Positions 1 to 64,000 of a stretch of 64,000 nucleotides of DNA are shown in pieces (within the stretch, counting starts at the first letter, position 1; every line of letters starts with the position of its first letter). The notes below the pieces were generated by a model, which worked only from the letters and a program-made list of their open reading frames with translations, was not told the DNA's origin and ran no database searches. Position numbers and translations under genes: made by a program. Origin of the DNA: Echinarachnius parma (lineage: Eukaryota > Echinodermata > Echinoidea > Clypeasteroida > Echinarachniidae); assembly GCA_037951105.1 (NCBI GenBank), contig JBAMJV010005523.1, forward strand, positions 62,001 to 126,000, in the 5' to 3' direction.

Positions 1-72
1 ACCCAAGTCCGCGACCAAGTTCATCGTAGTTCGAATTCCCGATGTTTTCACTCAGGCTCCAAAGGTTTATTT
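1..72 (-). CDS. Death-domain exon (partial), left gene copy
   Basis: Start of the fourth coding exon of the left gene copy; it continues past the window edge. The minus strand shows an acceptor (GACCAG) followed in phase 1 by INLWSLSENIG, then a stretch ending DELGRGLG. This matches the beginning of the complete death-domain exon at 29,076-29,327 (INLWSLSKNIG), including the acceptor and the phase. Death domains are six-helix protein-interaction modules that form oligomeric signalling complexes; only helix 1 and part of helix 2 are visible here. It lies downstream of the Pro-rich linker exon at 704-969, whose donor is also phase 1. I cannot tell whether the rest of this gene copy is intact. 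Confidence 0.7.
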
Positions 73-703
73 CTGGTCATTACCAATAATATGTAATGCG
101 AATAATATGTTATTAATGTAAATTATAAAACAACAAAACTATGATGATGCCGATGATTATGATGATAATTATAATAATAACAATACTATACTTATATTAT
201 ACTAATGAAAGTAATTATACAAACAATACTACTACAAATAAGAACACTTATGACACTAAAGAAAAATATTAATAGTGATAATTACAATAATACGTACAAC
301 CACAACTGGCCCTAACCCCCCCCCCCCCCCCCCCCCGATAGACACCTCTGGTGTTTTGGTCCAAGGAGGATTGTTTTAGTCACTATGTGGCCATTGCTCA
401 ATAAATCGAAGGCCTTTTGTGACCGCCACCCTCCCAAAGTACGCAATGCCACATCATGATTAATTTTACATGATGACCATGGGGTAAGATTAATAATTTA
501 AGCGCAGTAGAGTACATATTTGATTAATAGTTACTGCGATGATCATAATTATTATTATCATTATTCAATTCTGATTTATGAAAATGTAAATAATACCAAA
601 CAATGGTACAATTCAAGAAAAAGAAGAACGATCACAAATTAATTGGGATAGATTAACAACTGTTTAATTAATGCAATGGGTTAATTTGATGTATTGTTCT
701 TAC
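73..703. other. Intron, low complexity
   Basis: Intron between the Pro-rich exon and the partial death-domain exon. AT-rich, with ATA/AAT-rich low-complexity runs and a 21-base poly-C tract at 316-336. No other feature seen. Confidence 0.6.
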
Positions 704-969
704 CTGGATCAACAAAAACGTGGTCTCGAGGTGGCTGAGTATGAGCAGGAAGAGAAGAGGGAAGAGGTTGGGAAGAAGGAGAAGGATGAGAAGAAGATGG
801 AGGATTAGAGGAAGGTGGGGGATTAGAAGGAGGAGGAGGAGGTTGAGAAGGAAGTGGAGGTTGAGAAGGGGGTGGATTAGATGAAGAATGAAGAACAGAA
901 GAAGGAGGATGATGAGAAGGGGTTGCAGGAGGACGCGAAAGAGGCGTTTCATTATTGTTCGTCTGACGT
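704..969 (-). CDS. Pro/Ser-rich linker exon, left gene copy
   Basis: Third exon of the left gene copy, about 89 codons, flanked by an acceptor (ATGACAG) and a donor (CAG then GTAAGAAC). It enters in phase 2 and leaves in phase 1, matching its neighbours. It begins RQTNNNETP, ends DHVFVDPG, and between them carries an uninterrupted Pro/Ser-rich tract with runs such as SNPPPSQPPLPSQPPPPP. The equivalent exon in the middle gene (29,854-29,930) is only about 26 codons, with the same ends (QTYNEETPPPP ... DHLFLDPG). The tract is therefore an in-frame expansion in this copy. It probably acts as a flexible spacer between the propeller-like domain and the first death domain. An opposite-strand reading of this repeat is an artefact of composition. 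Confidence 0.7.
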
Positions 970-1476
970 CTGTCATGTCTGTGAAAGCAAGACATATGGT
1001 ATGTATTTTGAAAAGGGACATATCACAAGAAACATATTCAATGTATACTCGGCACGTCTGATTGTGAATAATTAAACAAGTACGGTATAGCATATACATA
1101 TCACTGTAGCAGAAGATAGCCGAAAGGTGTAATTTTGTGTTGGTGTGCTCTTGTTTCAAAATCGTTTATCCTCAATTTCACACAATAAATCAATAATTTC
1201 AAAAGTAGATTTCAAAATCTGGTAAAAACAATGTTCCTTATGAATATATGAGTCTTCACACATTTCTTATTTCGCGTGCACTTGCTCTGACTCTTTAATT
1301 GACTCTCGAATGAGTTAGGTTTGGGTTTGCGAAAAAACTATTATAATAACAAGGTTTAGTTAATAAAATTGTGTTTAAGTTGACAAATTTAGTAGAATAA
1401 CGGCCATTGAGTTTATTCAACTTTACACTCCTGGTATTATACATGTATAAGATGGAAAAGGAACGAATAACCGTAC
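970..1476. other. Intron
   Basis: Intron between exons 2 and 3 of the left gene copy; AT-rich, nothing else recognised. Confidence 0.5.
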
Positions 1477-1711
1477 GGTCTCTTGAACTCCACTCGAACA
1501 ACAAGGACTTCGTCGGCCATGTTTGTTGTGACGTGTAGCAGAAGATTCCCCGATGACGTCATGGCGGCATTCACATCACTGACAAGCGTGTTGTAGCGTT
1601 TGATCTGCAACCCCTTGACGACCTCGTAATTTTCTCCAAGCAATGACATTTCTAAAAAACTCTTTTGAGCTGCACTTCTGACGTAGATGACAAGAACCGA
1701 TCTATTTGGTC
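1477..1711 (-). CDS. Exon 2, end of N-terminal propeller-like region, left copy
   Basis: About 78 codons between an acceptor (TTTCCCAG) and a donor (CC then GTACGG); it enters in phase 1, as required by exon 1, and leaves in phase 2. The peptide starts GPNRSVLVIYVR and contains the runs SLLGENYEVVKGLQIKR and NAAMTSSGNLLLHV, with alternating beta-strand-like hydrophobics. It is clearly paralogous to 31,688-31,928, with the same splice borders. No named family recognised. I infer that it completes the beta-rich domain begun in exon 1, because it follows directly and has similar strand-turn-strand spacing. A separate small beta domain is the alternative. Confidence 0.75.
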
Positions 1712-1954
1712 CTGGGAAATACGACATATTTTATACATGTAGTAAGAAATTCTAACTGTACACAACGGTCAATAAAAATAATGGTAATTATGATGATACA
1801 AATATCATATCAATAGTAATACTATTGGTTATAAATATCATAACAATACTACAATTAATATTAATCATAATAAGAAGATGAACAGTTATTATGTTATCAG
1901 TATCATTCGCATCACTGATATTATTATAAATATTAGAAGTATTGTGATTAATTA

Positions 1955-1999
<45 letters not shown>
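1955..1999. repeat. (TGAT)n microsatellite
   Basis: About eleven tandem TGAT units inside the 1,712-2,253 intron of the left gene copy. The rest of that intron is AT-rich and shows nothing else. Confidence 0.95.
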
Positions 2000-2253
2000 G
2001 TGGAAAATAAATCCAAACAACAGTATGTTTGGTGTTCATTTGGCCCGTTCCATAGCATAAAACAAAAGTAAAACAGCAATAACATGTATAGAAAAAAATC
2101 GGGGGCACAAGGCACCCGCAATGAGCTCCCGGAAGTCAGAAAAGAGCCCTCATAAATGTACATACAGTGCTGCTTACAATGCACACTAACAAATTTGAAA
2201 ACTTTTCGTACAAGTACAGAAACGTTGGATATGAACGTAATTGCTCTTCTTAC

Positions 2254-2878
2254 CCGCAAGACATTTCTTTATGGTGATGTCCGCTTGAACCATAATGACC
2301 TGTTTCTGATACGATGCACCCGTCTTCTTCAGGACTTCGACACTCCTATTTTGCTTGTGCACCAGGACCGAACCACCCTCGAGGGGAACGATGTCAATCG
2401 AGCGATCACCGATAGCAATGTCGACGCCCTCTTCATAACGATAGGTGTCTGCACTCATCGCCCGAATCACGGACCCTTCTCCGAGGAGGATCCTCGCGAC
2501 ACCATCATCCCCGATATCGGTTGCGACAAGGTACGTTTTCTTCTTGAGCAAAACGGATATCGTCATTTTCCCCGCCGGGTCGTACACGCGCAGGTGGTCG
2601 TCAGCGAGGCAGACGAGGATACCATTTGGAAGCCACGCTGCGCTAATGATCTTGGTCTTTGATGGTTTTATGATCACCCCGCCCTTTCCGCCCTTTAATT
2701 CTGCGGTTTTTCCGAGCGATAGGTTCGCAAGTCTATAACAATACTCGCGTTTTTTCTTGTCGAAGTCCTGCAGAAGGAAACGTCCGTCTGATGAAGCGCA
2801 AACGAGTGACCACACGCCGCCTCGGTCGACTTGCACCGGGTCGCTCACTACGATGTCCTTTATCGAAATTCGATTCAT
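2254..2878 (-). CDS. Exon 1, beta-propeller-like domain, left gene copy
   Basis: First coding exon, 208 codons plus one base, ending at a donor (GCGG then GTAAGA). The start ATG (2,876-2,878) is chosen because the paralogue at 33,911-34,532 begins with the same residues, MNRISIKDI, and a purine lies at -3. Repeated strand-turn patterns resemble propeller blades: SDGRFLLQD (30-38), NGILVCLADDHLRVYD (85-100), a stretch around DIGDDGVARILL (121-132) and GGSVLVHKQNRSVEVL (168-183). No signal peptide or membrane segment, so probably cytosolic. The family is not recognised by name; WD40, NHL or tectonin-type propellers are the closest look-alikes. In this gene family the domain sits upstream of several death domains and may be a ligand- or partner-sensing head; that role is inference. 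Confidence 0.8.
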
Positions 2879-6778: not shown

Positions 6779-6781
<3 letters not shown>

Positions 6782-12560: not shown

Positions 12561-12955
12561 CACATTCTGGTCAGTTTCTCTATATGTTTGAATTAATCTT
12601 TAGAATTAATTTATCTAAACGAATTAATTTACTGTGAGTTGAGATTCCATGTATCCAACAAAATCCAGATAAAGTTTGTGTCATCACATCGCATCAAAAT
12701 ACATGAATTTTTAGCACAACGTACGTACAAACAAGCAATCTGATTAGCTCTAGTTTATGGGACAGCCTTACGTTCTAATGAGACTGGGGTTGGATTATTT
12801 TTTTCAGAGAGGGTTGTACAAAAAAAAAAGAAGCTTGTTCAACTGTTTGTAAAATGTATCATCGTTTGAGCTTGACGACATTTAAATTCGTGTTCAGTGA
12901 TTTATTCACTACCCCCATGCCAAACTCAGGTAGATCTCAGGGGCGAGGCATGCAC

Positions 12956-13246
12956 GTCAATAAATAAGGCGATTTCCAAAGTTCGGACCGCGGTTTAAGA
13001 CCGGCGCGGTTGAGGACCTGGCGCAGAGAGTTTTGGTTGTTCACTGCAGTCCGATTCCCCCAATGGAGCAAAGCGCGGTGTGCAGCATGTCCACAGTCTC
13101 CTACGTGAGCGGCAAGGATGGCCTCGAGCTCAGTGTGGGTGAAGTCCATAGCAAGACCAAGTGCGATGTACGTGTCGTGTGTCATTATGCGGCTGGGTAT
13201 ACTGCTAAATACCCAAAAGGGTACGCATTCACGTGTTGTCAACTCC
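12956..13246 (-). CDS. DD2 death-domain exon, most 3' copy of middle gene
   Basis: Acceptor AAATACAG then phase 2 entry (ELTTREC...). The core HDTYIALGLAMDFTHTELEA is followed by a second half containing ALLHWGNRT and LRQVLNRAGL, matching the other DD2 exons. The exon is 291 nt (97 codons), one codon longer than the other three. Its C-terminus (LKPRSELWKSPYLLT) has diverged from the usual SRIADKYLTDD, and the donor position reads GTGCAT, not GTAAGG. Read through, it stops six codons later (CMPRP). This could be the terminal exon of the gene or a decaying duplicate. Death-domain assignment rests on the amphipathic helix pattern and the shared W and L positions with the sister exons. Confidence 0.7.
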
Positions 13247-15425: not shown

Positions 15426-15713
15426 ATGAAGTCATCCGTCAGGTATTTGTCAGCGATTCTTGAAAGACCAGCGCGGTAAAGGACCTGGCGCAGAGGCTTA
15501 CGGATGTTTACTCCAGTCCGATTTCGCCACAGGTGCAAAGCGTGTTCTGCAGCATCACATGCCTCCACGTGAGCGGTGAAGATGGCCTCCAGCTCAGCCT
15601 TGGTGAAGTCCATCATAGCGAGACCAAGTGCGATGTACGTGTCGTGGGTCACTATGTTATTGGATACATTGATAAGCACCCGATATGGTACATCTTCCAG
15701 TGTTTCCAAAGCA
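15426..15713 (-). CDS. DD2 death-domain exon, first copy of middle gene
   Basis: 288 nt between acceptor (CATACAG) and a GTAAGG donor, phase 2 at both ends. Reads LETLEDVPYRVLINVSNN, then HDTYIALGLAM, a helix region TKAELEAIFTAHVEACDAAE, ALHLWRNRTGVN and LRQVLYRAGLSRIADKYLTD. The helical spacing and the conserved W and leucines fit the death-domain fold. If the donor is not used, the next codon after the exon is TAA, giving ...TDDFM-stop. One extra Met (AMMD) relative to the sister exons. Because entry and exit phases are equal, the exon can be skipped or joined to the next DD2 exon in frame. Confidence 0.8.
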
Positions 15714-18008: not shown

Positions 18009-18314
18009 CTGTAATTGTAGGTGAGATATTCTCCGCCGAGTCGCTTAAGTCCTGCGGCATTCAGCGCGGAGCGAAGGGGTTCACAAGTAGCCGTGTTTGA
18101 TGTTTCTTTCAGTGCTCAAACATCTGCAGGATCATTTCCCTACGACGGGATGGATTGCTGTCACTGAAATATCTGCGCCACTCGTCTGAATTAAGACCAA
18201 GCTCAGAGCACAGTCTCAACGTGCAGATATGCTCATCGTAGTGGTAAACCGAGCCACGAAAGTGCGGTCTCATCTCCGTTGCAATCTTTCTCAGCGTGTC
18301 AGGTGGATTATCAT
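18009..18314 (-). CDS. DD1 death-domain exon, middle gene, frameshifted
   Basis: Acceptor TCTCCAG, phase 1 entry, reads DDNPPDTLRKIATEMRP and continues through LRLCSELGLNSDEWRR to EMILQMFEH, then stops (TGA). The right-hand copy at 63.2-63.5 kb reads EHWKESSITATC at this point. The difference is one missing G near 18,110. After the lesion the other frame continues with the expected RSALNAAGLKRLGGEYL and a donor (ACAG then GTACGA). With one base restored in the count, the exon would leave in phase 2, matching the following DD2 exon. Either this copy is broken after half the domain, or the base is an assembly error. Confidence 0.7.
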
Positions 18315-25001: not shown

Positions 25002-25169
25002 CTCGTGGCTTGAAATGTCGTTTCGCATCGCTGTAAGATAACTCATCTAGCTTCACGGAGAAACCTGCGTCAGGTTCGGAGGTCTCACCTTCGGGTGGCG
25101 GAATGAGTGCGTCTTTTACCTGGCAAGCGACATCTCCTTGATCGGTGGTTTCTTTTAACTTATCAAGCC
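25002..25169 (-). CDS. Linker exon 8, middle gene
   Basis: 168 nt, acceptor CTCCTACAG and donor (CGAG then GTAAAG), phase 1 at both ends. Reads LDKLKETTDQGDVACQVKDA, then IPPPEGETSEPDAGFSVKLD and ELSYSDAKRHFKPRG. No known domain; acidic, probably a linker. It has no start codon of its own and is found only through splice borders and phase. The next exon in the gene (DD1 at 18.0-18.3 kb) also needs a phase 1 donor. Confidence 0.65.
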
Positions 25170-26269: not shown

Positions 26270-26584
26270 CTCTCTCGGTGAGAACATTCACGTGTAAGTG
26301 GATAACATGAGACTCCACGTTGAGGCCGCAAAGCTGATATTCCTGGAAGTTGTTGTCCTTCATGACTTTCTGAAGTCCCTTTATTGCCTTGAGGCACTGT
26401 GAGGTCTTCGAAGTGTCCTCCTCAGTTATGTCGACCGCTGGTTGTTGGGCAACTTCTGCTTTGACCTGGACGCCCTGGGAGGCCTTTGAAGTGTCCTCCT
26501 CGGTTCTGTTGATCGCTGGTTGCAGGATACTTTCAGCTTGGTCCTGAATCTCCCGGTTTTGATGTTGAGCGTCGATTATTGTTT
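26270..26584 (-). CDS. Linker exon 7 with internal repeat, middle gene
   Basis: 315 nt, 105 codons, phase 1 at both ends (acceptor TGTCTTGAG; donor AGAG then GTTTTG, a weak match). Reads TIIDAQHQNREIQDQAES..., contains two related segments, QPAINRTEEDTSKASQ and QPAVDITEEDTSKTSQ, and ends NVESHVIHLHVNVLTER. No named domain; acidic and Gln-rich in the first half. The open frame through the whole exon and phase agreement with exons 6 and 8 support it. Confidence 0.6.
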
Positions 26585-28024: not shown

Positions 28025-28114
28025 TGCAAGCATTTTCTTCCCCTGTGCGTGGCTCTTCGGGATCAACGACCGTCACTTCACCAGTCTTGGCATTCTTCTT
28101 CAGGTGGCCTCTTT
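28025..28114 (-). CDS. Linker exon 6, middle gene
   Basis: 90 nt, acceptor TTGTAACAG and donor (TGCA then GTAAGA), phase 1 at both ends. Reads RGHLKKNAKTGEVTVV followed by DPEEPRTGEENAC. No known domain; probably a spacer between the second death domain and exon 7. Confidence 0.6.
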
Positions 28115-28331: not shown

Positions 28332-28652
28332 CCAACTGTCTTGCTAATTTCTTCAAAGTACTAGCTTTCAACACTTTGGAAACGGTTCTTGTCTGATCGA
28401 CGTTTGTATCTTGTACAGCCCTCCAATTGTACAGGACTTGGTACATCTGTCTAGCAGTGTTGCCATGGTGATCGCGGCGTATGAGGTTCATCTTGATGTA
28501 TGACGTATTGAGTCGCAGAGAGACTGGCACGGCGTGTTCCACAGGAATTTCTTCCTGAAGATATTCCAGATGGATCTTTTCCAAGGTGGTTTCAACGACT
28601 TGACCCTGACCATCATGCGACCGGGTGACGTATGACGACGGGTCTTCGGGTG
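28332..28652 (-). CDS. Second death-domain exon, middle gene
   Basis: 321 nt, acceptor CTTCTTGAAG and donor (TTGG then GTAATA), phase 1 at both ends. It begins PEDPSSYVTRSHDGQGQVV (about 45 residues of linker), then VPVSLRLNTSYIKMNLIRRD, then TARQMYQVLYNWRAVQD and VSKVLKASTLKKLARQLG. The last about 65 residues show the death-domain pattern: I..I helix, QM...L.NW in helix 4, L...L helices at the end. Such domains bind partner death domains. It follows a different death-domain type in the preceding exon, so the protein has tandem unlike death domains. Exact family assignment needs profile comparison. Confidence 0.75.
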
Positions 28653-29075: not shown

Positions 29076-29327
29076 CTCTCTTGGCGAGCGAGTCTTGCCA
29101 GGCGTCCATACTGAGCAGGATGTCCTTCAGTTCTTGTCCGAGAACCAGGGCATCATCCGTCTCGCTACGCTGTATCCACGCCGACAGCATGGCAAAGGTC
29201 ACCTCTGGGAAGGCATCCACGTTGCTTCTCAAGTTGTCCAGTTCGGTGGGTTCGAATCCAAGGGTGAGACCAAGTTTGGTGTAGTCGGACTTCCCGATGT
29301 TCTTACTTAGGCTCCACAGGTTTATTT
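29076..29327 (-). CDS. First death-domain exon, middle gene
   Basis: 252 nt, acceptor TAACCAG and donor (GAGAG then GTACTG), phase 1 at both ends, one complete domain. Reads INLWSLSKNIGKSDYTKLGL, then GFEPTELDNLRSNVD, MLSAWIQRSETDDALVL and LKDILLSMDAW. W in helix 1, the LGF..TELDNL helix 2-3 junction and ML.AWIQR in helix 4 are characteristic of death domains. Preceded by the Pro-rich linker and followed by the second death-domain exon. The left gene copy shows the first 72 bases of its orthologous exon at the window start. Confidence 0.85.
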
Positions 29328-29853: not shown

Positions 29854-29930
29854 CTGGATCGAGAAACAAATGGTCTGGTTCTTGAACATGTTTAGGGGGA
29901 GGAGGAGTTTCTTCATTGTACGTCTGAGGT
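29854..29930 (-). CDS. Pro-rich linker exon, middle gene
   Basis: 77 nt, acceptor CCCACAG and donor (CCAG then GTATTA), entering in phase 2 and leaving in phase 1. Reads PQTYNEETPPPPKHVQEP then DHLFLDPG. The short counterpart of the 266-nt exon at 704-969. Confidence 0.75.
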
Positions 29931-31687: not shown

Positions 31688-31928
31688 GGGCTCTCGATGA
31701 TTTTGAACTCCACTCGACCGACAAGAACAGCGCTGACAGCCTTGAAAAAGACGTGTAGCAGAAGATCCCCCGATGACGTCATGGCGGCATTAACGCGACT
31801 GACAGGCGAGCTGAAGCGTTTGATCTGCAACCCCTTGACGACCTCGTAATCTTCTCCAAGCAGGGAAACTTCTAATTCACTCTTTAGATCCCGCTTGACG
31901 TAGATGACAAGAATCGATCGTTCTGGTC
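31688..31928 (-). CDS. Exon 2, end of propeller-like region, middle gene
   Basis: 241 nt, acceptor TATTCCACAG and donor (CCC then GTACGA), entering in phase 1 and leaving in phase 2. Starts GPERSILVIYVK, contains SLLGEDYEVVKGLQIKR and NAAMTSSGDLLLHV, and ends in RVEFKIIESP. Close paralogue of 1,477-1,711. The most variable part is the last third. Unrecognised family; probably the end of the beta-rich N-terminal domain. Confidence 0.75.
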
Positions 31929-33910: not shown

Positions 33911-34532
33911 CCGAAATACATTTCTTTATGATGATGTCTGCTGGAACCCTAACGACATTTGTCTGATAAGATGCACCCGTCTTCTTCAGGACTTCTACAC
34001 TTCCGCTCTGCTTGTGAACTAGGATCGAGCCACCCTCGAGAGGAATTATGTCAATTAAGGGATCACTGATGGCGATCTCGACGTCCTCTTCATAGCGATA
34101 CGTATCTGCGCTCATCGCGCTCATCACGGAGTCTTCTTCGAGAAGGAGCCTTGCGACGCCATCGTCCCCGACATCGGTTGCGACAAGGTACGATTTCTTC
34201 TCGAGCGCAACGGACCGCGTCACGTTGCCCGACGCGTCGTACACACGCAAGTAGTCGTTAACGAGGCAGACGAGGTAACCATTCGGAAGCGGTGCTGCAC
34301 TGATGATCTTGATCCCCGATGGTTTTATGATTACGTTTTTTTCGCCCTTCACTTCTTCGGTTTTTCCGAGTGACAGATTCGCTAGTCTATAACAGTACTC
34401 GCGGTTTATTCTGGCGTAGTCCTGCAGAAGGAAGCGTCCATCTGATGAAGCGCAAACAAGTGACCACTCGCCGCCTCGGTCGACGTGTACCGGGTCGCTC
34501 ACTTCGATGTCCTTTATCGATATTCGATTCAT
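33911..34532 (-). CDS. Exon 1, beta-propeller-like domain, middle gene
   Basis: 207 codons plus one base, donor (TCGG then GTAAGA), phase 1 exit. The start at 34,530-34,532 is preferred over an in-frame upstream ATG because the left copy begins at the same residue (MNRISIKDI) and has no matching upstream frame. Blade-like segments: SDGRFLLQD, NGYLVCLVNDYLRVYD, DVGDDGVARLLL and GGSILVHKQSGSVEVL. About three quarters identical to the left copy by eye, with one-residue length change near position 64. Differences are mostly conservative, so the frame is under selection. Likely a cytosolic sensing or scaffold domain joined to the death domains encoded downstream; the function is inferred only. Confidence 0.8.
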
Positions 34533-39727: not shown

Positions 39728-39972
39728 AAGTTATCCCATGCAGAATCATTAGTTTTGATTAAACAGTTTCCGTTCTAGGTCTGATCTTGTGACCCCATGT
39801 CAGGTTTCAAATTTGCCATATTTCAACATAAATCAGCCTGTTATTTGGCATCTTGGAGTAAACCAGGAAAGCAGTGTTTTTTAATGAAACTTGTACACAT
39901 CATTCAGACATATCTTACAATGATTTGGGTATAGGATTAAATTCTCAAATGTCTTTTTCAGCAATATCTAAC

Positions 39973-41681: not shown

Positions 41682-41682
41682 A

Positions 41683-41698
41683 TATCCCCCACCTTCAA
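41683..41698 (-). other. Polypurine tract
   Basis: Minus strand GAAGGTGGGGGATAT lies directly before the LTR start TGTCACAG; the usual primer for plus-strand DNA synthesis. Confidence 0.8.
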
Positions 41699-42314
41699 GA
41701 AATTTCTATAATTTCAAAAAAAAGTAAACTGGGGTAATTTGTCCCAAAACAACAACCTACAAAAATAAAGGTTCAACATAAAAAATAAAATTGTACTTTC
41801 AATTCGTCTTGCAGTCCTTCGGACAGTACATGTCTCTCCCTATATATCTTCAAGAAAATTATAGACAGTCAAAACATTACTTTCTTCGTTTCCAAATTTG
41901 TACTTGTTTTTTTTTTTTCAAAACCAAAACAAAATGTAAAAACAAATTGAATCAACCTGCAAAACAAAAGAGAAAAATAAACTAATCCGTAGTCAATTAT
42001 ATTCCAAGAGTCGGCAATCATGTCAATCGCAATAAATTTATATCTGAAAGAGAAATAACTGAATCCGTTATTAATCATCAGCTCCATTCCCAAATTCAGA
42101 AAAATCTGTCAATCATATAAAGAAACATATATGAAAAGGAAAATACAAAATTTGTTGTCAGTTCTATCCAATAGTCAGCTGGCATCCTGTAAATCATATA
42201 ACAAACATAATATGGAAAAGGGAAATACAAATTCCATTGTCAGTTCCGTTCCAATGTCAGAAAATCTATGAAACCTGCAATCAAAAATCAAAGTTAGTGT
42301 TTAATTAATAGATT
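41699..42314. other. Non-coding 3' part of the LTR element
   Basis: About 0.6 kb between the end of the ORF and the purine tract; AT-rich with two related segments (AGAAACATATATGAAAAGG and CAAACATAATATGGAAAAGG), no coding. Pol would be expected around here in an autonomous element. Confidence 0.6.
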
Positions 42315-44522
42315 TCACCTTTCCTTAACCCTTCTGCCCCACCTCACAAGAAATGTCTTTAAGTCATCACTTCTGTGACACTTCCAAAAGTCACATCTGA
42401 GCAGGAGGAGAAAGATCCAAAAGCGCCACATGCCTCTAGAGCTAACGAGGTCACATCCTTCATGACCAGAAGTGGTCACATGCACTCCCAAGTGCACCAA
42501 GATCAACGTGCCCACAACAAAGGAGAGGCAATCCTCCCATACATCACCTCTCACTTCATCTGAGAACACAACGATGTCAGGATTCACTTCACCAACATCA
42601 CTCTCACTACCATCTTCAACACATCCTGTGAAGCTGATATCCGTCTTGTCAGCATCCTGATCACCACAGAAACTTCTTTCGCTGACCTGACAAACATCCT
42701 GTGTAACATACACACCAACTGATCGAGACAACTCCCTAGACATCACATCAGACTCATCTGCATTAGACCTGGTCTGAATCGTCCGTGTAGACTGAAATTC
42801 CACACCATCCTCGGAAGCATCTATCGATCCAGCTAGTTCTGACTTCATCCAAGAAGTTGAACCATCACCTGTAGAAGATAACCCTACAGAAACTTGTGAA
42901 GACACCTCTTCACAACCAGAAACTTGTGAAGACAATTCTTCATAACAAAAAACTTGTGAAGACAGCTCTTCACAACCTGAAATTTGTGAAGACAACTCTT
43001 CACATTCTGAATCTTGTGAAGACAATTCTTCACATCCAGAAACTTGTGAAGACAACTCTTCACATTCAGAAACTTGTGAAGACAACTCTTCACACTCTAC
43101 CACAGACTCACTCGCAATGATCTTGGTAGAACCCAGTGTAGACTGCACTTCCACACCTTCAGACGGAGACCTAATCTCCTGAATACTTCCCTGGGAAGAT
43201 TCCAAAAATCCTTCAAAACAAGAACTGCAACATGATTCCAACGAATCAAAATATGCCGCTTCCACCTGCGTCACATGAAGGGGAAACACATCACACCCAT
43301 TTAGAGATTCCAAAATTCCATTAGAACTCTCACCCGATTCCAATGAATCAAAATCTGCCGCTTCCACATGCGACACATCAAGGGGACACACATCACACCC
43401 ATCTTGAGTTTCCGCTGCTCCCTGGGAAGATGCTAGCGAACCAACCTCTCGATGCACTGGAAATACATCATCAGCTGACACAACATCATACAGTGGTTTG
43501 GGTACCTGTTGGGGCGGCCTGGAAATTACCTGCCTCGTCTGATCCCTTACGTCCACTGCAGTTGCTCGATGATAATCAGGCTTCCAGTTCACATCTGGGT
43601 CGTCTGGTCCCCGGACATCAGTCACATTACCAATAATAAGATCATACACAGGGGAAAGCATACAAAGAGCATCAATCTTACCCTTGAAGAAAGGAGTATC
43701 AATCTCGATGCTTGCCACTGCAAAGACCTTGGCTGTCCCGTCTACAAGCACGCAAGTCCGCTGCTCTCCAGTAAACTGTTCATCTCGTACAAGGTCACGC
43801 CTCACCGCCACAATTGAACATCCAGTGTTCCGTAGCACCTGCACAAGTCTCCCACTAACCATCCCATTGCAGACTGGCAACACGTCTCGACGCACATCAC
43901 ATGCCTCTGCGGAAAGTACTGGAAGACTATCTCCCGATGCTAACTTAACTGCCGTTCCAATATTAGTGAGGTTCTCCTCTACAAGCGGTGACACCTGGAC
44001 AACTCGACAGAGCCCCTCCTGATGAGCTTCCTCCCGTGGGTCTGGAGGGTCGGCTGTACCTGAAACCGGTTCAGCCTTTGGTGCAACATTTGCATCCCTA
44101 CCCTGGGTAAGACTTGTGCCCATCTCACTTTGACTCTGCTTGCCCGAACACTGCCATGAGAGATGACCTTCGCTATTACAAAGAAAACATGTTACTGACT
44201 TTTTAGACTGGTTATGTTTTTGACTTGCATCTTGTTTAGTTACGTTAGTATCTTTCTTATTACTGAACTGCTGGGCTCCATTTATTTCATTTTCTCTCCT
44301 AAGTTCCTCTAACTTTTTTCTTTGGGCAACTAAATTAATTTCAAACCTTATTTGCTCAAATTGCTCTGCTCTTTCACATCTCTCCTCTTCCAAACATTCA
44401 TCCACGTATGCCTTTAAATCTAACCCACTCAAACCAAACTTCTCTGCTTGTGCAATGTACCTGTCTCTCTCCATACTGAAGGATACACCAGAAAACAAAA
44501 TTTCGCACTTACCGCGCTGCAC
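42315..44522 (-). CDS. Gag/protease-like polyprotein of the LTR element
   Basis: 735 codons, uninterrupted. Residues about 17-80 are charged and coiled-coil-like (KFGLSGLDLKAYVDE, then Glu/Arg-rich). A CCHC zinc knuckle, CFLCNSEGHLSWQC, is at 112-125. Only about 30 residues separate the two, so the capsid part usual for gag seems to be missing. A retropepsin-like section follows at about 215-312: the active-site triplet reads NTG at 232-234 where catalytically active enzymes have DTG, and YDLIIGN at 293-299 fits the second conserved motif. It is therefore probably inactive. After that the protein is Ser/Glu-rich, with a doubled segment (VEAADFDSLES, VEAAYFDSLES) and seven 10-residue repeats of the ECEELSSQVS type at 475-544 (DNA 42,891-43,100). 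The tail has hydrophobic runs at 668-682 and 699-708. Met-17 is an alternative start. Confidence 0.85.
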   Translation of the reverse strand: MQRGKCEILFSGVSFSMERDRYIAQAEKFGLSGLDLKAYVDECLEEERCERAEQFEQIRFEINLVAQRKKLEELRRENEINGAQQFSNKKDTNVTKQDASQKHNQSKKSVTCFLCNSEGHLSWQCSGKQSQSEMGTSLTQGRDANVAPKAEPVSGTADPPDPREEAHQEGLCRVVQVSPLVEENLTNIGTAVKLASGDSLPVLSAEACDVRRDVLPVCNGMVSGRLVQVLRNTGCSIVAVRRDLVRDEQFTGEQRTCVLVDGTAKVFAVASIEIDTPFFKGKIDALCMLSPVYDLIIGNVTDVRGPDDPDVNWKPDYHRATAVDVRDQTRQVISRPPQQVPKPLYDVVSADDVFPVHREVGSLASSQGAAETQDGCDVCPLDVSHVEAADFDSLESGESSNGILESLNGCDVFPLHVTQVEAAYFDSLESCCSSCFEGFLESSQGSIQEIRSPSEGVEVQSTLGSTKIIASESVVECEELSSQVSECEELSSQVSGCEELSSQDSECEELSSQISGCEELSSQVFCYEELSSQVSGCEEVSSQVSVGLSSTGDGSTSWMKSELAGSIDASEDGVEFQSTRTIQTRSNADESDVMSRELSRSVGVYVTQDVCQVSERSFCGDQDADKTDISFTGCVEDGSESDVGEVNPDIVVFSDEVRGDVWEDCLSFVVGTLILVHLGVHVTTSGHEGCDLVSSRGMWRFWIFLLLLRCDFWKCHRSDDLKTFLVRWGRRVKER

Positions 44523-44754
44523 CTAACTATGCCGCGGTGTGCTCTTACCGGCCCCTGCAGAACTTGGAACACCAAGCTGGGTAAAGCCTCTGTGCCTTGA
44601 TCTGCGCCAGTCAACCATCTAGTGAACCTTAAATACTTAGAACAAAGAAGAACAATGTAACATTAATACACACAAATAATAGTTTGTTTAAGAAGCCATA
44701 TATATCTTGTCATAGTAATCACTTTATAGTTTAACCCGATCTATCAGAAAGAAG
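44523..44754 (-). other. Leader of the LTR element
   Basis: About 230 bases between primer site and the ORF start; no gene. Confidence 0.5.
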
Positions 44755-44774
44755 GAGTCCCTTCGTGGTCGCCA
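44755..44774 (-). other. tRNA-Arg-type primer binding site
   Basis: Minus strand TGGCGACCACGAAGGGACTC, two bases after the LTR end. It is complementary to the 3' end (with CCA) of an animal tRNA-Arg of the UCG type as I remember it. Sets the orientation of the element. Confidence 0.85.
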
Positions 44775-44776
44775 AT

Positions 44777-46485
44777 TGTCAGATCTTGATACTGAAATTA
44801 CCAAGTCTGATTTGATAGATGTGGTTCTGTTATAAATATTAGATTACTATGCAAAGAAATAAGGCACGACATGCGGAAGATATAATTTAATATATTTTGT
44901 TTTTATTAACATGAAAATTGAAACCATCATTGGTTTGAAATAAACACATATCTAAGCAAAACATAATTTAACTGGCGCCATTATCACAAAATAATAAGAG
45001 ATAAGTTCAGTTATCATTATTATTTATATTAAGGGGATACATTAATGGGTGGATAGCACCTTAAAGTTCAGTTGCTGTTGACACCAATCCTCGCGAAGAC
45101 CAGAGGGTGAAGTATTCGCGAAAGATTCAAGTTGAGGTTGCAGACCCAGTCTGCGTAGAAAAACATGACGGTATGGGCGTCGGCTGAAGTGCTTGCGAGA
45201 GTTCATCGCGTCGAAGTTGCAGACCCAGTCTGCAATGATGTGAAGCGCGCGGTGGTTGAATTCCCCATGACGGGCGTCGTGGAGGACGATCGACTGCACC
45301 GCGATGCTGTGGACATCTAGGCCCGTAGTCGAGATGACTGGAGTTGCGGAGTCGTGCCGGAGCCGGTTCGAAGACCCAGTGGTGCCAACGCGGAGCCGGA
45401 TGGAAGCCGGTATGACGGTTGGATCATCGGAGCTCGGGTCGGTTGAACAGCGGATTGGAGATCTCCGTTGTAGCTTGGCGTGACATAGCCCGGAGTTAGA
45501 GATACTCGGTGGAGTTGAAGATGCTCGTTAGAGCCGAAGATAGAGTTGACGATAGTCGTAGAGCCGAAGTTAGAGTTGAAGATGCTCGTAGAGCTGCTCG
45601 TTAGTCGTAGAGCTGCTCGTTAGAGTTGAAGATGCTCGTAGAGCCGAAGTTAGAGTTACTGATGCTCGTAGAGTTGACGATATTCGTAGAGACCTCATTG
45701 AAGCTTGAAGTTAGACATTAGTAGAGCCCAGCTGGTTCAGATTTTTGGTGACAGATACCGATGAAGAGGTATGGTGACGGCAAGGTGGAGGAGGCTTTAC
45801 CCAGCATCATGGTGGTTGGATTGCTGGGTGCTTTCCGGCATAAAATTAACTAATACTCTAGCCCAACATCAGGCTGGTATCTGGTGTATCACCTGCTCAA
45901 ATTCACGACCTTCCATACTCAGTGACTGATGCTATCTGTGTCACTTGACTATTCTCTCACATCCACTATAACTTACAGTACCCAAATCCAACGCACATGA
46001 ACAAAAGAATGTTCCCGCCCAAAATCATAGTAAATGCAACTTACTGGAGGTGACCCACTCACACAAAACTAGTCGATACCAGTTCCCTTCTTATTTACTA
46101 CCCTGGATAGGTACTAGGCATTACATACCAAAACTATTCAACCATCTCTTTGAATGAACAACTTTCACAATTGTCCTATCTAAACTTCACTCACGTGTAC
46201 AATAAACATTCAGCTTCTGTACACACTATTTCTATACAATTCTCACTTTGCATGAACACACTCCCTATTATTAAATCAGGGATATCTCTGGTTCCATCTC
46301 AAGCTAAACCATATACAATAACCCTTAACAATGAGCTTGTGTGCACACTAAATATACACAAATCCGGGGCCTTATAGCCTAAAACACATGCTCACACATT
46401 AAATAAAAAGAAGCAGTCACACATGACTGAATTTATGGTCAAGTGTGGATGCCCAAATCTCTTAAAACGAAGTCACTCTGTGACA
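44777..46485 (-). repeat. LTR (5' LTR in element sense)
   Basis: 1,709 bp, no difference from 39,973-41,681 noticed by eye. Should hold the promoter for the minus-strand transcript; no individual promoter site identified. Confidence 0.95.
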
Positions 46486-46490
46486 CTAAC

Positions 46491-55191: not shown

Positions 55192-55479
55192 GTGTAGTCC
55201 TCCGCCAGGTATTTGGCAGCGATTGTTGAGGGACCAACGCGGTTGAGGACCTTGCGCAAAGGGTCGCGGTTGTTCGCTCCCGTTCGATTTCTCCATAGAA
55301 GCAAAGCGGGGTATGCCGCAAGTACATAACTTCCTTCTTGAGCCGTTACGATAGCATCGAGCTCAGCTTTGGTGATGTCCATAGCAAAACCAAGTGCGAT
55401 GTACTTGTCCTGAGTCACTATGTTGTAGGATAAGTCCCTAAGCACCTGAGAAGGTACGTCTTCAGGTGTTGTCAAAGCC
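55192..55479 (-). CDS. DD2 death-domain exon, second copy of right gene
   Basis: 288 nt, acceptor TAAAATACAG, phase 2 both ends. Reads LTTPEDVPSQVLRDLSYN, DKYIALGFAMDITKAELDAI, ALLLWRNRTGANN and LRKVLNRVGPSTIAAKYLAE. Ends with the overlapping donor/stop: ACGTAAGG gives ...DYT-stop if unspliced. The CRITICAL helix W and leucines are kept. No lesions seen. May be the last coding exon of the right-hand gene, as no further DD2 exon is seen before the next gene's start at 34.5 kb. Confidence 0.8.
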
Positions 55480-58253: not shown

Positions 58254-58541
58254 GTGTAGTCCACCGTCAGGTGTATGTCTGCGATTCTTGAGAGACCAAC
58301 GCGATCGAGGACCCGGCGCAGAGGGTTTCGGTTGTACACTCCGGTCCGATTTTGCCACAAGTGCAAAGCGTTGAATGTAGCATGTTCAGATTTCTTTTCT
58401 TTCTCGGTGAAGATAGCCTTGAGCTTAGATAGGGTGAAGTCCATAGCAAGACCAAGTGCGATGTACTCGTCGTGTGTCACTATGACGTAGGATATCTTCT
58501 CAAGCACAGACGAGGGTACGTCATCAGGTGGTATCAAAGCC
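58254..58541 (-). CDS. DD2 death-domain exon, first copy of right gene
   Basis: 288 nt, acceptor TAAAACACAG, phase 2 both ends, donor/stop overlap ACGTAAGG. Reads LIPPDDVPSSVLEKISYV, DEYIALGLAMDFTLSKLKAI, FTEKEKKSEHATFNALHLW and LRRVLDRVGLSRIADIHLT. The helix 3-4 loop is more charged (EKEKKSEH) than in the other copies. Intact. Preceded in the gene by DD1 at 63.2-63.5 kb. Confidence 0.8.
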
Positions 58542-58690: not shown

Positions 58691-58833
58691 GGTCGCGCGT
58701 GAACGATATGTGCGACGCGCTCTCCTGAAATGCGTTCTGGCCGCAAAGGAACGTTTGTTGAGGTCGCGCGTGAACGATATGTGCGACGCGCTCTCTTGAA
58801 ATGCGTTCTGGCCGCAAATGAACGTTTGTTGAG
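58691..58833 (+). repeat. 71-bp tandem duplication
   Basis: Two consecutive copies starting GGTCGCGCGTGAACGATATG at 58,691 and 58,762, differing at two positions by eye. CpG-rich compared with its surroundings. Confidence 0.9.
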
Positions 58834-59638: not shown

Positions 59639-59644
59639 CGTGCG

Positions 59645-61963
59645 TATGGCAAGCCGTTTTAACATTTATTCCTATTTCTTGATATCAAGAATTCAATTCT
59701 TGATATCAAGAATTCGACTTCTTGATATCAAGAATTCATTTCTTGATATCAAGAATTCAATTATTGATATCAAGAATTACCATTGCTTTACAACAGAAAA
59801 TCATTTCTTGATATCAAGAATTCATTTCTTGATATCAAGAAATCAATTCTTGATATCAAGAATTCATTTCTTGATATCAAGAATTCAATTCTTGATATCA
59901 AGAATTCATTTCTTGATATCAAGAATTCGAATTCTTGATATCAAGAATTCGAATTCTTGATATCAAGAAATAATTTTCTGTTGTTAACCAATGGTAAATC
60001 TTGATATCAAGAATTCAATTCTTGATATCAAGAATTCGATTTCTTGATATCAAGAATTCATTTCGTGATATCAAGAATTCGATTTCTTGATATCAAGAAT
60101 TCATTTCTTGATATCAAGAATTCGAATTCTTGATATCAAGAATTCGATTTCTTGATATCAAGAATTAATTTCTTGATATCAAGAATTTATTTTTTGATAT
60201 CAAGAATTCGATTTCTTGATATCAAGAAATCAATTCTTGATATCAAGAATTCATTTGGATATCGAGCTCAAAAGTAGTGGATAAATTCACAGTTGAATTC
60301 GAACGCGAGAGTTGTGCAGGTATTCATTCTGATTTCGAACGCAAGATTTGAGCAGGATTACATTCTGATTTCGAACGCAAGATTTGAGCAGGATTACATT
60401 CTGATTTCGAACGCAAGATTTGAGCAGGATTACATTCTGATTTCGAACGCAAAAGTATTGCACGATTTCCTCCTGAGCGGTGCGGTGTCTAGTCCAGATT
60501 CAGGAAGTGCTTTGTGAACACACACCATGTACACACCGCCCTATACGACTCGCGCTATAGCTAGAGCCTATTCACAAAACTGCCGCATAGCAGTCTCTAG
60601 TCCAGATTCAGGGCGTGCTTTGTGAACACACACCATAGATCTGTGTACACACCGCCCTAGAGCCTAAGTAAACATAACTGCTGCAGTCTGAGCCCAAATA
60701 TCGGCCACGTGCGTTTTTATCATTTCGTGATATGTTGCCAATAAACGTTGCGTAAACCTGTTGTAAAGATTGTCCCTTGTGCAATAAATATGTCCACGTG
60801 TTTTTCTGAATGATCAATTGTAAAATATACTTGTATTTTAGTTGAAATAGTAACGTCAGATGTGATATTTTAAAAGCAAAATAACTTCTAAAAAGACTTA
60901 CAAATACGCATTGTAAATGCACAATTTGGCAACATATCACAAATTCATTAGTTCCGCATGAATTCTTGATATGTTGCCAATTTATCATTTTTACAATGCG
61001 TGTTTTGTAAGTCAATTTAGATGTCTTTTTGCTGAAAATGATCAGATCGGACAGTATTATTTTAAATGACGTGATCAAAAATATTTTGAAATAAATTGCG
61101 CAGTAAAAACGTGAATATATTATTACACACGGGGTAATCTTTGCTACAGGTTTGCGCATTGTCTATTGGCAACATATCACGAAATGATTTCTTGATATGT
61201 TGCCGTTTTACGTTTTTGAAAGACGTGTGTTTTATAACAAGTAATTAAACTGGAAAATCACATCCAACATTTTCAATGTAACATTAATCAATGGTCTAAA
61301 AAACATATGTTTAAACAGTATGAAATGAAAATTTTCTACAAGGAATATCACAGAGACAGTAAATGCACTGCAAACTGGCAACATGAATTCTTGCATTAGT
61401 TGAATTTTCGCGATACATTGACTTTCGACACCGCACCACTCAGGCAGGATTCATTCGTGCACAACTTTTGCGTTCGAAATCGAATCACAATGAATTTGAG
61501 CGCAACTTTTGAGCACGAAATCAGAATGAATTTCTGCATTACATTTGCGCTCGAAATCAACTGTGAATTTTTGCATTACTTTTGCGCTCGATATCAAAAT
61601 AATTCTTGCAATAGTCTTGCGTTCGAAATACGAATTGAATTCTTGATATCATGAATTCTATGTTTTGATATCAAGATTTGAATTCTTGATATCAAGAAAT
61701 GAATTCTTGATATCAAGAATTGAATTCTTGATATCAAGAAATGAATTCTTGATATCAAGAATTGATTTCTTGATATCAAGAAATGAATTCTTGATATCAA
61801 GAAATGATTTTCTGTTGTAAAGCAATGGTAATTCTTGATATCAAGAATTGAATTCTTGATATCAAGAAATGAATTTTTGATATCAAGAAGTCGAATTCTT
61901 GATATCAAGAATTGAATTCTTGATATCAAGAAATAGGAATAAATGTTAAAACGGCTTGCCATA
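59645..61963. mobile_element. Nested foldback element built of 16-bp palindromes
   Basis: Inverted ends TATGGCAAGCCGTTTTAACA... flanked by CGTGCG on both sides (59,639-59,644 and 61,964-61,969). Left arm (59,675-60,255) has about 25 and right arm (61,636-61,935) about 13 copies of TTCTTGATATCAAGAA or close variants, spaced 20-22 bp. Further in come inverted arrays of a TTTCGAACGCAAGATTTGAG type unit (36-bp period, 60,293-60,450) and their complement (61,450-61,640), then CCTGAGCGGTGCGGTGTC / GACACCGCACCACTCAGG, then ATTTCGTGATATGTTGCCAA / TTGGCAACATATCACGAAAT around a centre near 60,950. No transposase. Open readings here are repeat artefacts. Confidence 0.9.
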
Positions 61964-61969
61964 CGTGCG

Positions 61970-62554
61970 ATCGCTTCTGCCTAATACCACACCGCTTCGC
62001 ATGTCACGTACGGCCGGCCGACCCGCCTGATTGTTCGTTCGTCGCGATATACTCTTGATAGATAGATCATGAAATCACACCAGCAGAATGTTGTTGTTGT
62101 TTTTTTTTGTATTAAGTGAGTATTTAAGAAAAAAAGAAATAGCCTAAAAGGAAGAATAACTTTAACACAATAGGCCTATATTTAATGTTAACTTGCTGCT
62201 CTTCTTTTTCTTTGTTTCATTTTTAAAACTAGGCCTACTTCTTAAGTTATTTATTTCACTCATTAATTCTTTGTTTCTTTCCTCTTATCTTATTTCATTC
62301 TTCTTCTTCTTTTCACCTTTTTATCCTTTTATAGGCCTACTCTTTACTGTTAGGCCCAGCTAGCTATTTGATTTATTTATATTTGTTTCCATTTTCTTTC
62401 TTTTCTTCTTTCTTTCTTTCTCCTTCATTTGCTTCTTCTTTCTTTTCTTGTAAGTACATGTTCTTTCTCTTGTCCCTCTTCCCGTGTTATTTTTGTTTTC
62501 TTCCTCTATTCCTTCAGTTTCTTTGTCGAATATTGAAATGTAGACCCAACAAAA
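61970..62554. other. Pyrimidine-rich stretch
   Basis: TTTCTTC-rich at 62,200-62,530; TAGGCCTA motifs at 62,171, 62,230 and 62,332. No gene. Confidence 0.6.
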
Positions 62555-63205
62555 CAAAATGAAACTCAACCCAAGTAAATGTGTTGTAATGAATGTATAG
62601 TTCGTATAACGGAAACAGTAGCACCCAAGATAACAATAGGCAATCTTTAATTGAATGAAGTGTCAGTAGTCAAACTACTAGGAGTGCTAGTCCAAAACGA
62701 CCTGAAATGGTCCAGTCAAGTAACCGAAATCATCAAGCGAGCAAGCATGACATTGCATATGCACCGCATTCTGAAGGGTTTCAAACTTCCGGCAGAAGAT
62801 TTGCTGGTTGGTTATTGCTCATAATTATGTGCGGCCTGTTGCAGAATATTGTGCGCCTGTTTGACATTATGGCCTAACTGAACAACAGACGACCCAGATT
62901 GAGAGAATCCAGAAAAGGGCTTGTCGCCTCATGCTTGGTTCGCAGTACAATACCTATGTAGATGCATTGGCTAAATTAGGCCTCCCGTCTCTGGCTGCAC
63001 GGAGAGAGAAATTGTACTTAAATTTGGCGAATGGCTCCCTCCCTCACGTGCCTCATTGAGCTCCCGCACACTCCGCAATGGCCATCAGGACTATTCTGAG
63101 GTCTTTTGTAGGACCGAGTGATACAAGAAAAGTGCTCTGCCATACCCCATAAGGCTATTGAATGCAAACTCATAGTTCATTCATAAAACATTTGTATATA
63201 TATTG
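62555..63205 (+). mobile_element. LINE 3' fragment (non-LTR reverse transcriptase end)
   Basis: Broken plus-strand frames carry the C-terminal part of a non-LTR reverse transcriptase: KLNPSKC, VKLLGVLVQNDLKWSSQV, RILKGFKLPAEDLLVGY, then YVRPVAEYCAPV, GLTEQQTTQIERIQKRACRL and, near the end, PYPIRLLNANS-stop. Several stops and frame changes; 5' truncated. Its 3' end, a short TATATA tail, runs directly into the DD1 exon at 63.2 kb. Confidence 0.85.
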
Positions 63206-63511
63206 TGTAGGTAAGATATTTCTCCCCTAGTCGCATCAGTCCTGCGGCATCCAGCGCGGAGCGAAGAGATGCACAAGTAGCCGTGATTGATGATTCTTTC
63301 CAGTGCTCCAACATCTGAAGGATTGTTTCTTCATGGCTGGACCCCTTCTGCTTACTAATACGTTTGATCCACTCGTTTGAATCGAGACGAAGCCCAGTGC
63401 ATAGTCTCACCGTGAAGTCATGGTCATGATAGTTGTAACACACACCACGGTAGTCATGGTTAAACGCCATCTCCCTTGCGATCTCGTTCAGGATGTCCCG
63501 TGGAATATCAT
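63177..63511 (-). CDS. DD1 death-domain exon, right gene, 3' end replaced
   Basis: Acceptor TGATTCAG, phase 1 entry. Reads DIPRDILNEIAREMAFNHDY, FTVRLCTGLRLDSNEWIKR, ETILQMLEHWKESSITATC and LRSALDAAGLMRLGEKYLTY, a complete DD1 domain without the frameshift seen at 18.1 kb. After ACCTACA the sequence departs from the middle gene's exon (which goes on to a donor) and enters the LINE tail, adding TIYIQMFYE and a stop. The normal donor is gone, so splicing to the DD2 exons at 58.5 and 55.4 kb would need another site. This copy may end here. Confidence 0.75.
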
Positions 63512-64000
63512 CTGAATCATTTGTGGGGTTTTAACACGACATGGTTTTTAGATCATTGTATAATTTATCAAAGTAAGTGAGACACAAGGATGACTGAATT
63601 GATGTATGTAATTATCATTATTCTACAAAGCTTATAAATTACATTTCTTCGAGCTTGTTTATGTTATATTTAATCATTCACACTTTCCTGATCATCGCCG
63701 TAATAGCCACGTATTGCCATGTTCGTGTCATGAAATGAAACGTGGCTATTTAATTGCTATTTCCTGTCACCAGCGTAACAATAAGTGACAGTTACTATAA
63801 GTGTAATTGGCACTTACGTTTAGGCAGCGCTAAATGTTCAAGATGTTCAGAATTCGGCCATTATTTTTAAGTCAGCCATGTTGACTATCGTGGCTAGTGT
63901 AACGGTTATGGGAGTGGCCGGGTGTCTGACTTGGCCATTCTCTGGATATTCCATGGCTCTACAAGACCCGCGTATTACCATGATTACGGAGTGCTTAATA
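63512..64000. other. Intron, paralogous to 18,315-19,320
   Basis: Aligns with the region upstream of the middle gene's DD1 exon but lacks its insertions, giving an empty site near 63,785 for the element at 19,157-19,289. No exon found; earlier exons of this copy lie beyond the window. Confidence 0.6.

Follow-up and report, generated by a model that had tools for sequence, protein, structure and literature searches.

The window (the whole stretch of 64,000 nucleotides analysed here) contains repeated groups of paralogous exons on the minus strand, which raises the question of whether they belong to one duplicated gene type and what protein such a gene would encode. The first exon of the head is seen at 2254-2878 and 33911-34532, and the second at 1477-1711 and 31688-31928. 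Exons for death domains fall at 12.9-18.3, 28.3-29.3, and 55.2-63.5 kb.

Gene copies and predicted exons

The preliminary description proposed a tandem array of at least three genes, with matching splice borders and phases at 0-2.9, 12.9-34.5, and 55-63.5 kb. The matching borders and phases were seen exon by exon, and the array is larger than proposed. The 194 kb contig that includes the window (C5517) carries four collinear copies (A to D) of one gene type, all on the minus strand, as in a tandem multigene array. The window itself holds the head of copy A, the whole of copy B, and the tail of copy C. The exons at 55-63.5 kb are indeed paralogous, but they are only the tail of copy C and not a whole third gene. 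The search for further copies beside the window, which had been suggested, found copy D farther right on the contig. An Rfam scan of the window gave no matches at the gathering score. The features in window coordinates are as follows.

2254..2878, minus: copy A E1, ATG and first part of the head, 208 aa; homologous to copy B E1
1477..1711, minus: copy A E2, remaining head; splice borders and phase
704..978, minus: copy A E3, Pro-rich hinge; splice borders and phase
1..72, minus: copy A DDA (death domain); extends beyond the window's left edge, with DDB, E6, E7, and E8 following outside it
33911..34532, minus: copy B E1, head; homology, splice borders and phase
31688..31928, minus: copy B E2, head; splice borders and phase
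29854..29930, minus: copy B E3, short Pro-rich hinge; splice borders and phase
29076..29327, minus: copy B DDA, first death domain; open frame has E 0.003 against Pfam Death, under the cut-off
28332..28652, minus: copy B DDB, second death domain; copy D counterpart has Pfam Death E 5.8e-7
28025..28114, minus: copy B E6, linker; splice borders and phase
26270..26584, minus: copy B E7, N-terminal portion of the E7-E8 domain, which may be TRADD-N
25002..25169, minus: copy B E8, C-terminal portion of that domain
18009..18314, minus: copy B DD1, death domain; frameshifted by 1 base
15426..15713, minus: copy B DD2a, death domain; GTAAGG donor overlaps an apparent stop
12937..13246, minus: copy B DD2b, death domain with a divergent 3' end, probably the last exon; stop and AATAAA just downstream
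63177..63511, minus: copy C DD1; open frame has E 3.8e-4 against Pfam Death, just under the cut-off; end set at the first in-frame stop, the expected donor being absent
58254..58541, minus: copy C DD2a; splice borders and phase
55192..55479, minus: copy C DD2b; AlphaFold2 pLDDT 79.8, six helices

Exon order, splice sites, and phases agree across copies (entry-exit phases: E1 0-1, E2 1-2, E3 2-1, DDA, DDB, E6, E7, and E8 1-1, DD1 1-2, DD2 2-2), and the splice borders read exon by exon are canonical. The predicted spliced reading frames are open over E1-E8 in copy A (732 aa), E1-E8 in copy B (695 aa), and E3-DD2b in copy D (670 aa). The coding phase is stop-free in 24 of the 25 exons of these three reads, the sole exception being a TGA in copy A E8, while most, but not all, of the alternative phases contain stops.

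Apparent stops just past the DD2 domains were considered as gene ends and rejected: in five DD2 exons of copies B, C, and D (all except B DD2b) a conserved GTAAGG donor overlaps them, and therefore they are probably intronic. Between E8 and DD1 there is a short conserved segment, which was rejected as an exon by eye because it has no consistent open frame with splice borders.

There is a fifth copy on contig C1763, with the same order from E1 to DD2b and E3 unmatched there. On contig C787, E1, E2, DDA, DDB, E7, E8, DD1, and three DD2 exons are collinear on one strand with no internal stops (exon types searched). The number of DD2 exons per copy varies from 0 to about 5.

Death domains, E7-E8 domain, and head

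The proposed order, in which a pair of unlike death domains precedes DD1 and DD2 domains that vary in number, is supported, and so is the death fold. The Pfam Death profile (PF00531, curated cut-off 22.6 bits) scored above the cut-off in all three joined proteins scanned (A 28.3, B 23.4, D 73.7 bits), with four stretches in copy D. Among the single exons of copy D, DDB (30.0 bits) and DD1 (22.7 bits) were over the cut-off; DDA (16.4 bits) and DD2b (12.1 bits) were under it, and DD2a gave no match. None of the 10 window frames scanned singly was over the cut-off. DD2 is the weakest death domain by sequence, and copy C DD2b is predicted as six helices (pLDDT 79.8). In a Foldseek search with this model, every one of ranks 1-30 of 48 had a death-domain title (E 0.022 and TM 0.73 at best; no match with E <0.001). 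The model superposes on the death domains of THOC1/p84, ankyrin-G, FADD, and RAIDD with a TM-score of 0.72-0.73, but the identity is just 11-17% and the host proteins are otherwise unrelated. The profile thus supports a death fold for the joined proteins, DDB, and DD1, and the predicted structure supports one for DD2. By eye only, 12 possible relatives with a single death-domain exon, at other places in the genome, were set aside.

The Pro-rich hinge (E3) was borne out, while the "linkers" of the preliminary description need amending. E7 and E8 together probably encode a single folded domain, to which single-exon paralogues in other parts of the genome are homologous. This domain may be a TRADD-N, for which the comparisons are suggestive only. 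TRADD-N profiles (PF20694, PF13820) did not match E7-E8 in any of the four copies at E up to 10, and genome searches found only other genes (PF13820, one match of three scored; PF20694, four of seven). An hhalign comparison of E7-E8 with the TRADD-like_N exon of this genome (L061) gave a score of 16.4 (probability 1.4%, E 0.035), which was reached by 1 of 200 column shuffles. The same comparison was equalled by 68 of 200 shuffles with the single-exon paralogues alone and by 16 of 200 with both combined.

The first head exons of copies A and B are 72% identical over 224 aa (E 1e-113), and the E1 proteins are 76% identical. The head had been described as propeller-like. The model is all-beta but of low confidence (E1 alone, without E2; 13 strands, pLDDT 36.4), family matches and repeat tests gave nothing significant, and we say only that the head may fold as a beta-propeller. 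Many of the best 50 of 1125 Foldseek rows for the E1 model are, by name, presumably propeller proteins, with TM <=0.28 among these 50. HHalign self-comparison found no repeat in the head, and the score of a window-chain repeat test was reached by 28 of 200 shuffles. Ten heads compared with Pfam matched no propeller family significantly (WD40, NHL, or other); the best were BBS2_Mid (E 0.014, three heads), WD40 (0.098, one head), and ANAPC4_WD40 (0.22, one head), and three non-propeller families were similarly weak. A PDB profile search found nothing significant (DNA polymerase alpha subunit B came first at E 0.12, and SCAP had 0.24), and NCBIfam gave no matches to head plus hinge.

Among nine heads (partial or broken ones, L044-L048, excluded), dN/dS was below 1 in all 36 pairs (median 0.42), and by this measure the head is under purifying selection. 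In DD2a, dN exceeded dS in 9 of 15 pairs, whereas DD2b pairs, like head pairs, were below 1. The DD2a counts are small and the pairs non-independent, and the median of the seven pairs with dS above 0.05 is 0.82. The input was six DD2a and four DD2b of 17 extracted sequences; one extra reading each of C and D, two identical sequences (L051), a truncated DD2b-type sequence (L055), and the diverged pair of copy B were dropped. L056 yielded no sequence in the extraction, and the DD2b-type sequence of L054 was not caught. A pairwise comparison excluded pairs involving a broken exon (C E1 or B DD1).

Proposed function and alternative readings

On balance, we lean towards a tandemly duplicated family of intracellular multi-death-domain scaffolds with head-nucleated death-domain assembly. 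The protein would start with a conserved all-beta head (possibly a beta-propeller), followed by the Pro-rich hinge, two unlike death domains, the E7-E8 domain (possibly TRADD-N), DD1, and DD2 domains whose number depends on the copy. None of the four joined proteins has a 19-residue stretch with a Kyte-Doolittle mean of 1.6 and therefore there is no obvious membrane helix; the proteins would be cytosolic. The head might bind a conserved ligand or partner, and binding or clustering could expose the death-domain string. The exposed string would then nucleate homotypic assembly, for which Myddosome- and PIDDosome-type platforms are models, and recruit death-domain adaptors, kinases, or caspase adaptors. 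The family would thus act in signalling and, by analogy, in immunity. Tandem duplication would create the copies and a birth-and-death process would strip them of parts, a pattern to be expected in an immune gene family.

It is very unlikely that two neighbouring gene types co-duplicated, one with head, hinge, DDA, DDB, and E6-E8 and the other with DD1 and DD2. Copy A stops by the TGA at the end of E8, before any DD1, no DD1 or DD2 was found to its left on the rest of the contig (tblastn at E 1e-3), and the intron from E8 to DD1 in copy B is about 6.7 kb, all of which would suit separate genes. However, the exit phase of E8 and the entry phase of DD1 are both 1 in copies B, C, and D, and the 670-aa frame of copy D is open over the E8/DD1 junction. 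Copy C has no in-frame ATG from the upstream stop to the DD1 domain, and therefore an upstream coding exon is required. Moreover, the order E8-DD1-DD2 was found again on seven other contigs (C787, C1763, C9876, C5206, C3299, C9699, and C2441), some of which may be mutual alleles. A single gene from head to DD2, as first proposed, is thus supported as most likely. The claim that each gene encodes the full layout was too strong, since on this contig copy A lacks DD1 and DD2, DD1 of copy B is frameshifted, the head of copy C is broken, and no head was found for copy D.

None of the four copies on the contig is fully intact, which would fit a decaying cluster of mostly relics whose layout no longer yields protein here. 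Besides the lesions of copies A and B and the missing DD1 donor of copy C, E1 of copy C (part of a head placed beyond the window, near 80 kb in its numbering) has an early stop and a frameshift, and no head of copy D was found on the contig. DDA of the C1763 copy contains a break, and one head match elsewhere has three stops. We consider such decay unlikely, since the heads have dN/dS below 1 throughout, the spliced reads are long and open, and all exons searched on C787 are open; some of the indels may be assembly errors.

Similarly improbable is a regulator or decoy whose string titrates death-domain adaptors, or pathogen factors that target death domains, instead of starting a signal. No catalytic domain was found by Pfam in the exons scanned, the dN excess of DD2a is unlike the head and DD2b, and the structures that match DD2 include one of FADD bound to a bacterial effector (6aci). 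However, many known signalling scaffolds likewise have no catalytic domain, and the DD2a excess is subject to the small counts given above. A doubtful but somewhat less improbable idea is a distinct class of polyvalent scaffolds, in which a single chain holds several unlike death domains in a set order from the outset and one head seeds or titrates assembly. In this class, the tail length would change by exon duplication and be homogenised between copies, and DD2a would partly diverge under pressure from pathogen factors.

Relation to known families

Death domains are building blocks of platforms for cell-death and immune signalling. The well-known death-domain platforms of animals join separate proteins with one death domain each. 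If the scaffold reading is true, one chain here carries at least five unlike death domains, already joined to one another and preceded by a conserved head, and the repeat number varies. Such a family would permit direct tests of death-domain valence and order against signalling threshold, and of the evolution of invertebrate immune scaffolds via exon duplication. Apaf-1 also has a death-fold domain and propellers within one platform-building protein, but it has a CARD instead of death domains, and the head is N-terminal here. No Pfam match to NB-ARC, as in Apaf-1, was found in the exons and joined proteins scanned.

The best reading is a duplicating family of intracellular death-domain scaffolds or sensors, of the same general sort as the expanded Death/TRADD-N families of marine invertebrates, and the comparisons below refer to the part of the source paper considered here. 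Expanded Death/TRADD-N families, some with propellers, have been described in marine invertebrates (Kaur et al. 2021, PMC8195603), and the Death-like/TRADD-N expansions include hemichordates, echinoderms, amphioxus, bivalves, cnidarians, and sponges. Like them, the present family is expanded and has Death-like domains adjoining a TRADD-N (here only possible), and in some lineages they carry beta-propellers and low-complexity linkers, as possibly here. Unlike them, the possibly propeller-like part is N-terminal here, and death domains flank the E7-E8 domain on both sides. Relative to that part of the paper, the layout looks undescribed, in a type of expanded immune gene family already known from animals, and the source data of the paper may list the same layout. 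The DED-TRADD-N-linker-WD40 proteins of Branchiostoma also are expanded and combine a Death-like domain, TRADD-N, a flexible linker, and a propeller in one chain (PMC8195603). As described there, they differ in their reverse order, in having a DED instead of several death domains, and in their highly variable propellers, whereas the head of the present family appears to be under purifying selection.

Exon series and copies on the contig

Exon anatomy was drawn from minus-strand open frames compared among themselves, with the flanking contig included and each border read singly. The contig, C5517, has 194,085 bases, of which 62001-126000 are the window, in a genome of 1.2 Gb in 14,790 contigs with animal-type genes, and a single exon series recurs along it: E1 (with the start ATG) and E2, which make up the head, E3 (a Pro-rich hinge), the death-domain exons DDA and DDB, the linker exon E6, E7, E8, and the death-domain exons DD1 and DD2. 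Four paralogous genes carry the series.

Gene copies on contig C5517 (window coordinates)
Copy A: 2878 leftwards, beyond the window edge; minus strand; E1 to E8, the last ending in TGA
Copy B: 34532-12937; minus strand; all exons, with a frameshift in DD1 and a diverged DD2b end, a stop and AATAAA
Copy C: 80269-55192; minus strand; early stop plus frameshift in E1; two DD2 exons
Copy D: E3 to two DD2 exons; minus strand; open over 670 aa

Every internal border used has AG before and GT after the exon (predicted splicing), and the phases from E1 to DD2 are common to the copies (0-1, 1-2, 2-1, 1-1, 1-1, 1-1, 1-1, 1-1, 1-2, 2-2). The start ATG in E1 has a similar context in copies A, B, and C. 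Of 25 exons, 24 lack a stop when read in the coding phase, and the other phases mostly carry stops; the predicted spliced read of E1-E8 is open over 732 aa in copy A and 695 aa in copy B, and that of copy D over 670 aa. Copy C has lost the AG that the other copies use at E3, and thus its border was placed at a downstream AG; its DD1 lacks a donor at the site used in B and D and was drawn up to the first stop. Copies B, C, and D have two DD2 exons each. No DD1 or DD2 was found left of copy A on C5517, and no E1 or E2 of copy D in the rest of the contig. Since copy D contains a stretch of N, more exons may hide there. A tandem duplication of 3485 bp (C5517 51670-58638, outside the window on its left; 99.94% identical) doubles E8 of copy A and is either a recent event or an assembly artefact.

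Death domains, E7-E8, and the head

With Pfam Death (cut-off 22.6 bits), the joined proteins of A (28.3 bits), B (23.4), and D (73.7, in four stretches) all pass. Among the single exons of copy D, DDB (E 5.8e-7), DD1 (1.1e-4), DDA (0.0099), and DD2b (0.22) gave hits at these E values and DD2a gave no hit, and none of 10 window frames scanned singly passed the cut-off. DD2 was therefore modelled, with the structure predicted from four window exons. The model has six helices (mean pLDDT 79.8, pTM 0.73); two of five models are at the best quality and the remaining three are at 42-52. Foldseek gave 48 matches in PDB, with 1wxp as the best (E 0.022, TM 0.73); judged by title, every match down to rank 30 is a death-domain entry, and the lower ranks are mixed. 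Since none of the 48 has E < 0.001, the argument for a death fold is the consistency of this list.

Single-exon paralogues on C4999, C8430, and C5618 align across the E7/E8 junction (E 0.002, 0.003, and 0.03), and a profile comparison with them gave a probability of 96.5% and a score that 0 of 200 shuffles reached. Thus, E7 and E8 probably encode one intron-split domain. On two of these contigs the E7-E8-like match has a DDB-like match upstream of it, at about 1.4 kb on C5618 and about 9 kb on C8430, and therefore the pairing may predate the array gene family. One TRADD-like_N exon of this genome, which presumably resembles DEDD, matches PF20694 (E 4.8e-13). E7-E8 matches this exon with E 0.035 (1 of 200 shuffles better); the single-exon paralogues alone give this match no support (68 of 200), and the combined profile supports it weakly (16 of 200). 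Pfam detected no TRADD-N in E7-E8. On these comparisons, TRADD-N stands as a lead for E7-E8 and not as a result. In the genes L061-L063 (on C9926, C9300, and C13352), a TRADD-like_N exon is followed downstream by partial repeats of itself.

The head is probably a beta-propeller, judging by eye from its strand and glycine pattern. A profile scan of the heads of A and B matched no propeller family, and 10 heads scanned against Pfam gave no significant relative; the weak matches were to the propeller-type families BBS2_Mid, WD40, and ANAPC4_WD40 and to HET-s, Tsi1, and PH_34. HET-s_218-289 was weakly matched by two of the 10 heads (head-exon alignment A4; best E 0.015), probably by chance. The E1 model is all-beta at very low confidence (pLDDT 36.4), and its Foldseek search has many propellers among the best 50 of 1125 rows, with TM at most 0.28; this list is not taken as proof of the fold. 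Two repeat tests of the head were both negative: in one, 28 of 200 shuffles reached the observed score, and the other was an HHalign self-comparison.

Copies elsewhere in the genome and turnover

Whole-genome exon searches gave 14 matches for E1 (18/18 candidates scored), 15 for E2 (16/16), 23 for DDA (63/63), 27 for DDB (134/134), 45 at E up to 1 for E7-E8 (46/46), 18 for DD1 (54/54), and 46 for DD2 (115/115). The Pfam Death family occurs at no fewer than 149 places (at least 149; 149 of 150 scored match, among 479 candidates). There are fewer genes than matches, since some genes are matched in two pieces and some contigs appear to be haplotypes: C8537 resembles the other haplotype of A and B by its spacing, and C9699 that of one C1763 gene by equal scores, yet the heads differ. 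Two matches lie inside long open frames: one of E2 (C9699:59739-59981) in a frame of 2610 aa, and a partial one of DDB (C9876:64869-65003) in a frame of 1781 aa.

A fifth copy, on C1763, has the same order from E1 to DD2b, with E1 partial, E3 unmatched, and a break in DDA. Exon matches on one strand of C787 run E1, E2, DDA, DDB, E7, E8, DD1, DD2, DD2, DD2, and no match of the types searched (E1, E2, DDA, DDB, E7-E8, DD1, DD2) contains a stop. With matches grouped by nearness, no DD2 was found by A; B, C, and D each have two, C787 and C5206 three, C3299 four, and C1763 five (21-30 kb).

Between C and D, dS drops along the gene (DDA-E8 0.210, DD1 0.122, DD2a 0.035, DD2b 0.059), which suggests that the 3' part has undergone gene conversion or has spread recently. 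Two distinct subtypes, DD2a and DD2b, recur in the same order at several loci (C5517, C787, C1763, C2441), and the DD2 exons there have dS below that of most head pairs; gene conversion of the 3' part across these loci is possible.

Between copies B and C, two direct repeats of 1715 bp each (39970-41684 and 44774-46488, 2 mismatches) flank a minus-strand open frame of 735 aa (42315-44522) with a CCHC-type motif by eye, and 39970-46488 resembles an LTR-type mobile element that inserted recently. In copy C, palindromic-unit arrays around TTCTTGATATCAAGAA (59643-60268 and 61600-61965) lie in inverted arrangement between the DD1 and DD2a exons, with 290-nt arms 99% complementary.

Proposed working and selection

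Among the search results listed, read from their abstract openings, no publication named the architecture, which may nevertheless be in print. The part of Kaur et al. 2021 (PMC8195603) consulted reports marine invertebrates with expanded Death-like/TRADD-N families, propeller fusions included, and associates these families with retrotransposons. Domain shuffling in amphioxus, as far as the consulted part of PMC2575513 describes it, is a parallel to the architecture.

The array gene product is most likely a scaffold or sensor, in which the head would bind, the hinge would keep it apart from the death-domain string, and the string would nucleate assembly. A Kyte-Doolittle scan found no 19-residue stretch averaging 1.6 or more, and thus, by hydropathy, the protein is likely to be intracellular, or at least non-membrane. 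It is very improbable that the head-to-E8 and DD1/DD2 parts are two separate genes. A decoy product is unlikely.

A decaying cluster is about as unlikely as a decoy; the frameshifts of B and C speak for it, and the open reads of A, B, and D speak against it. By Nei-Gojobori, dN/dS is below 1 in 36 of 36 head pairs (median 0.42) and 6 of 6 DD2b pairs (median 0.38). For DD2a it is above 1 in 9 of 15 pairs, with small counts; 7 of these pairs have dS > 0.05, and their median is 0.82. For the separate exons on C5517, dN/dS ranges from 0.26 to 2.59, with many values of 0.4-1. The head is one of the gene's better conserved parts, and this speaks against hypervariable recognition by the head.
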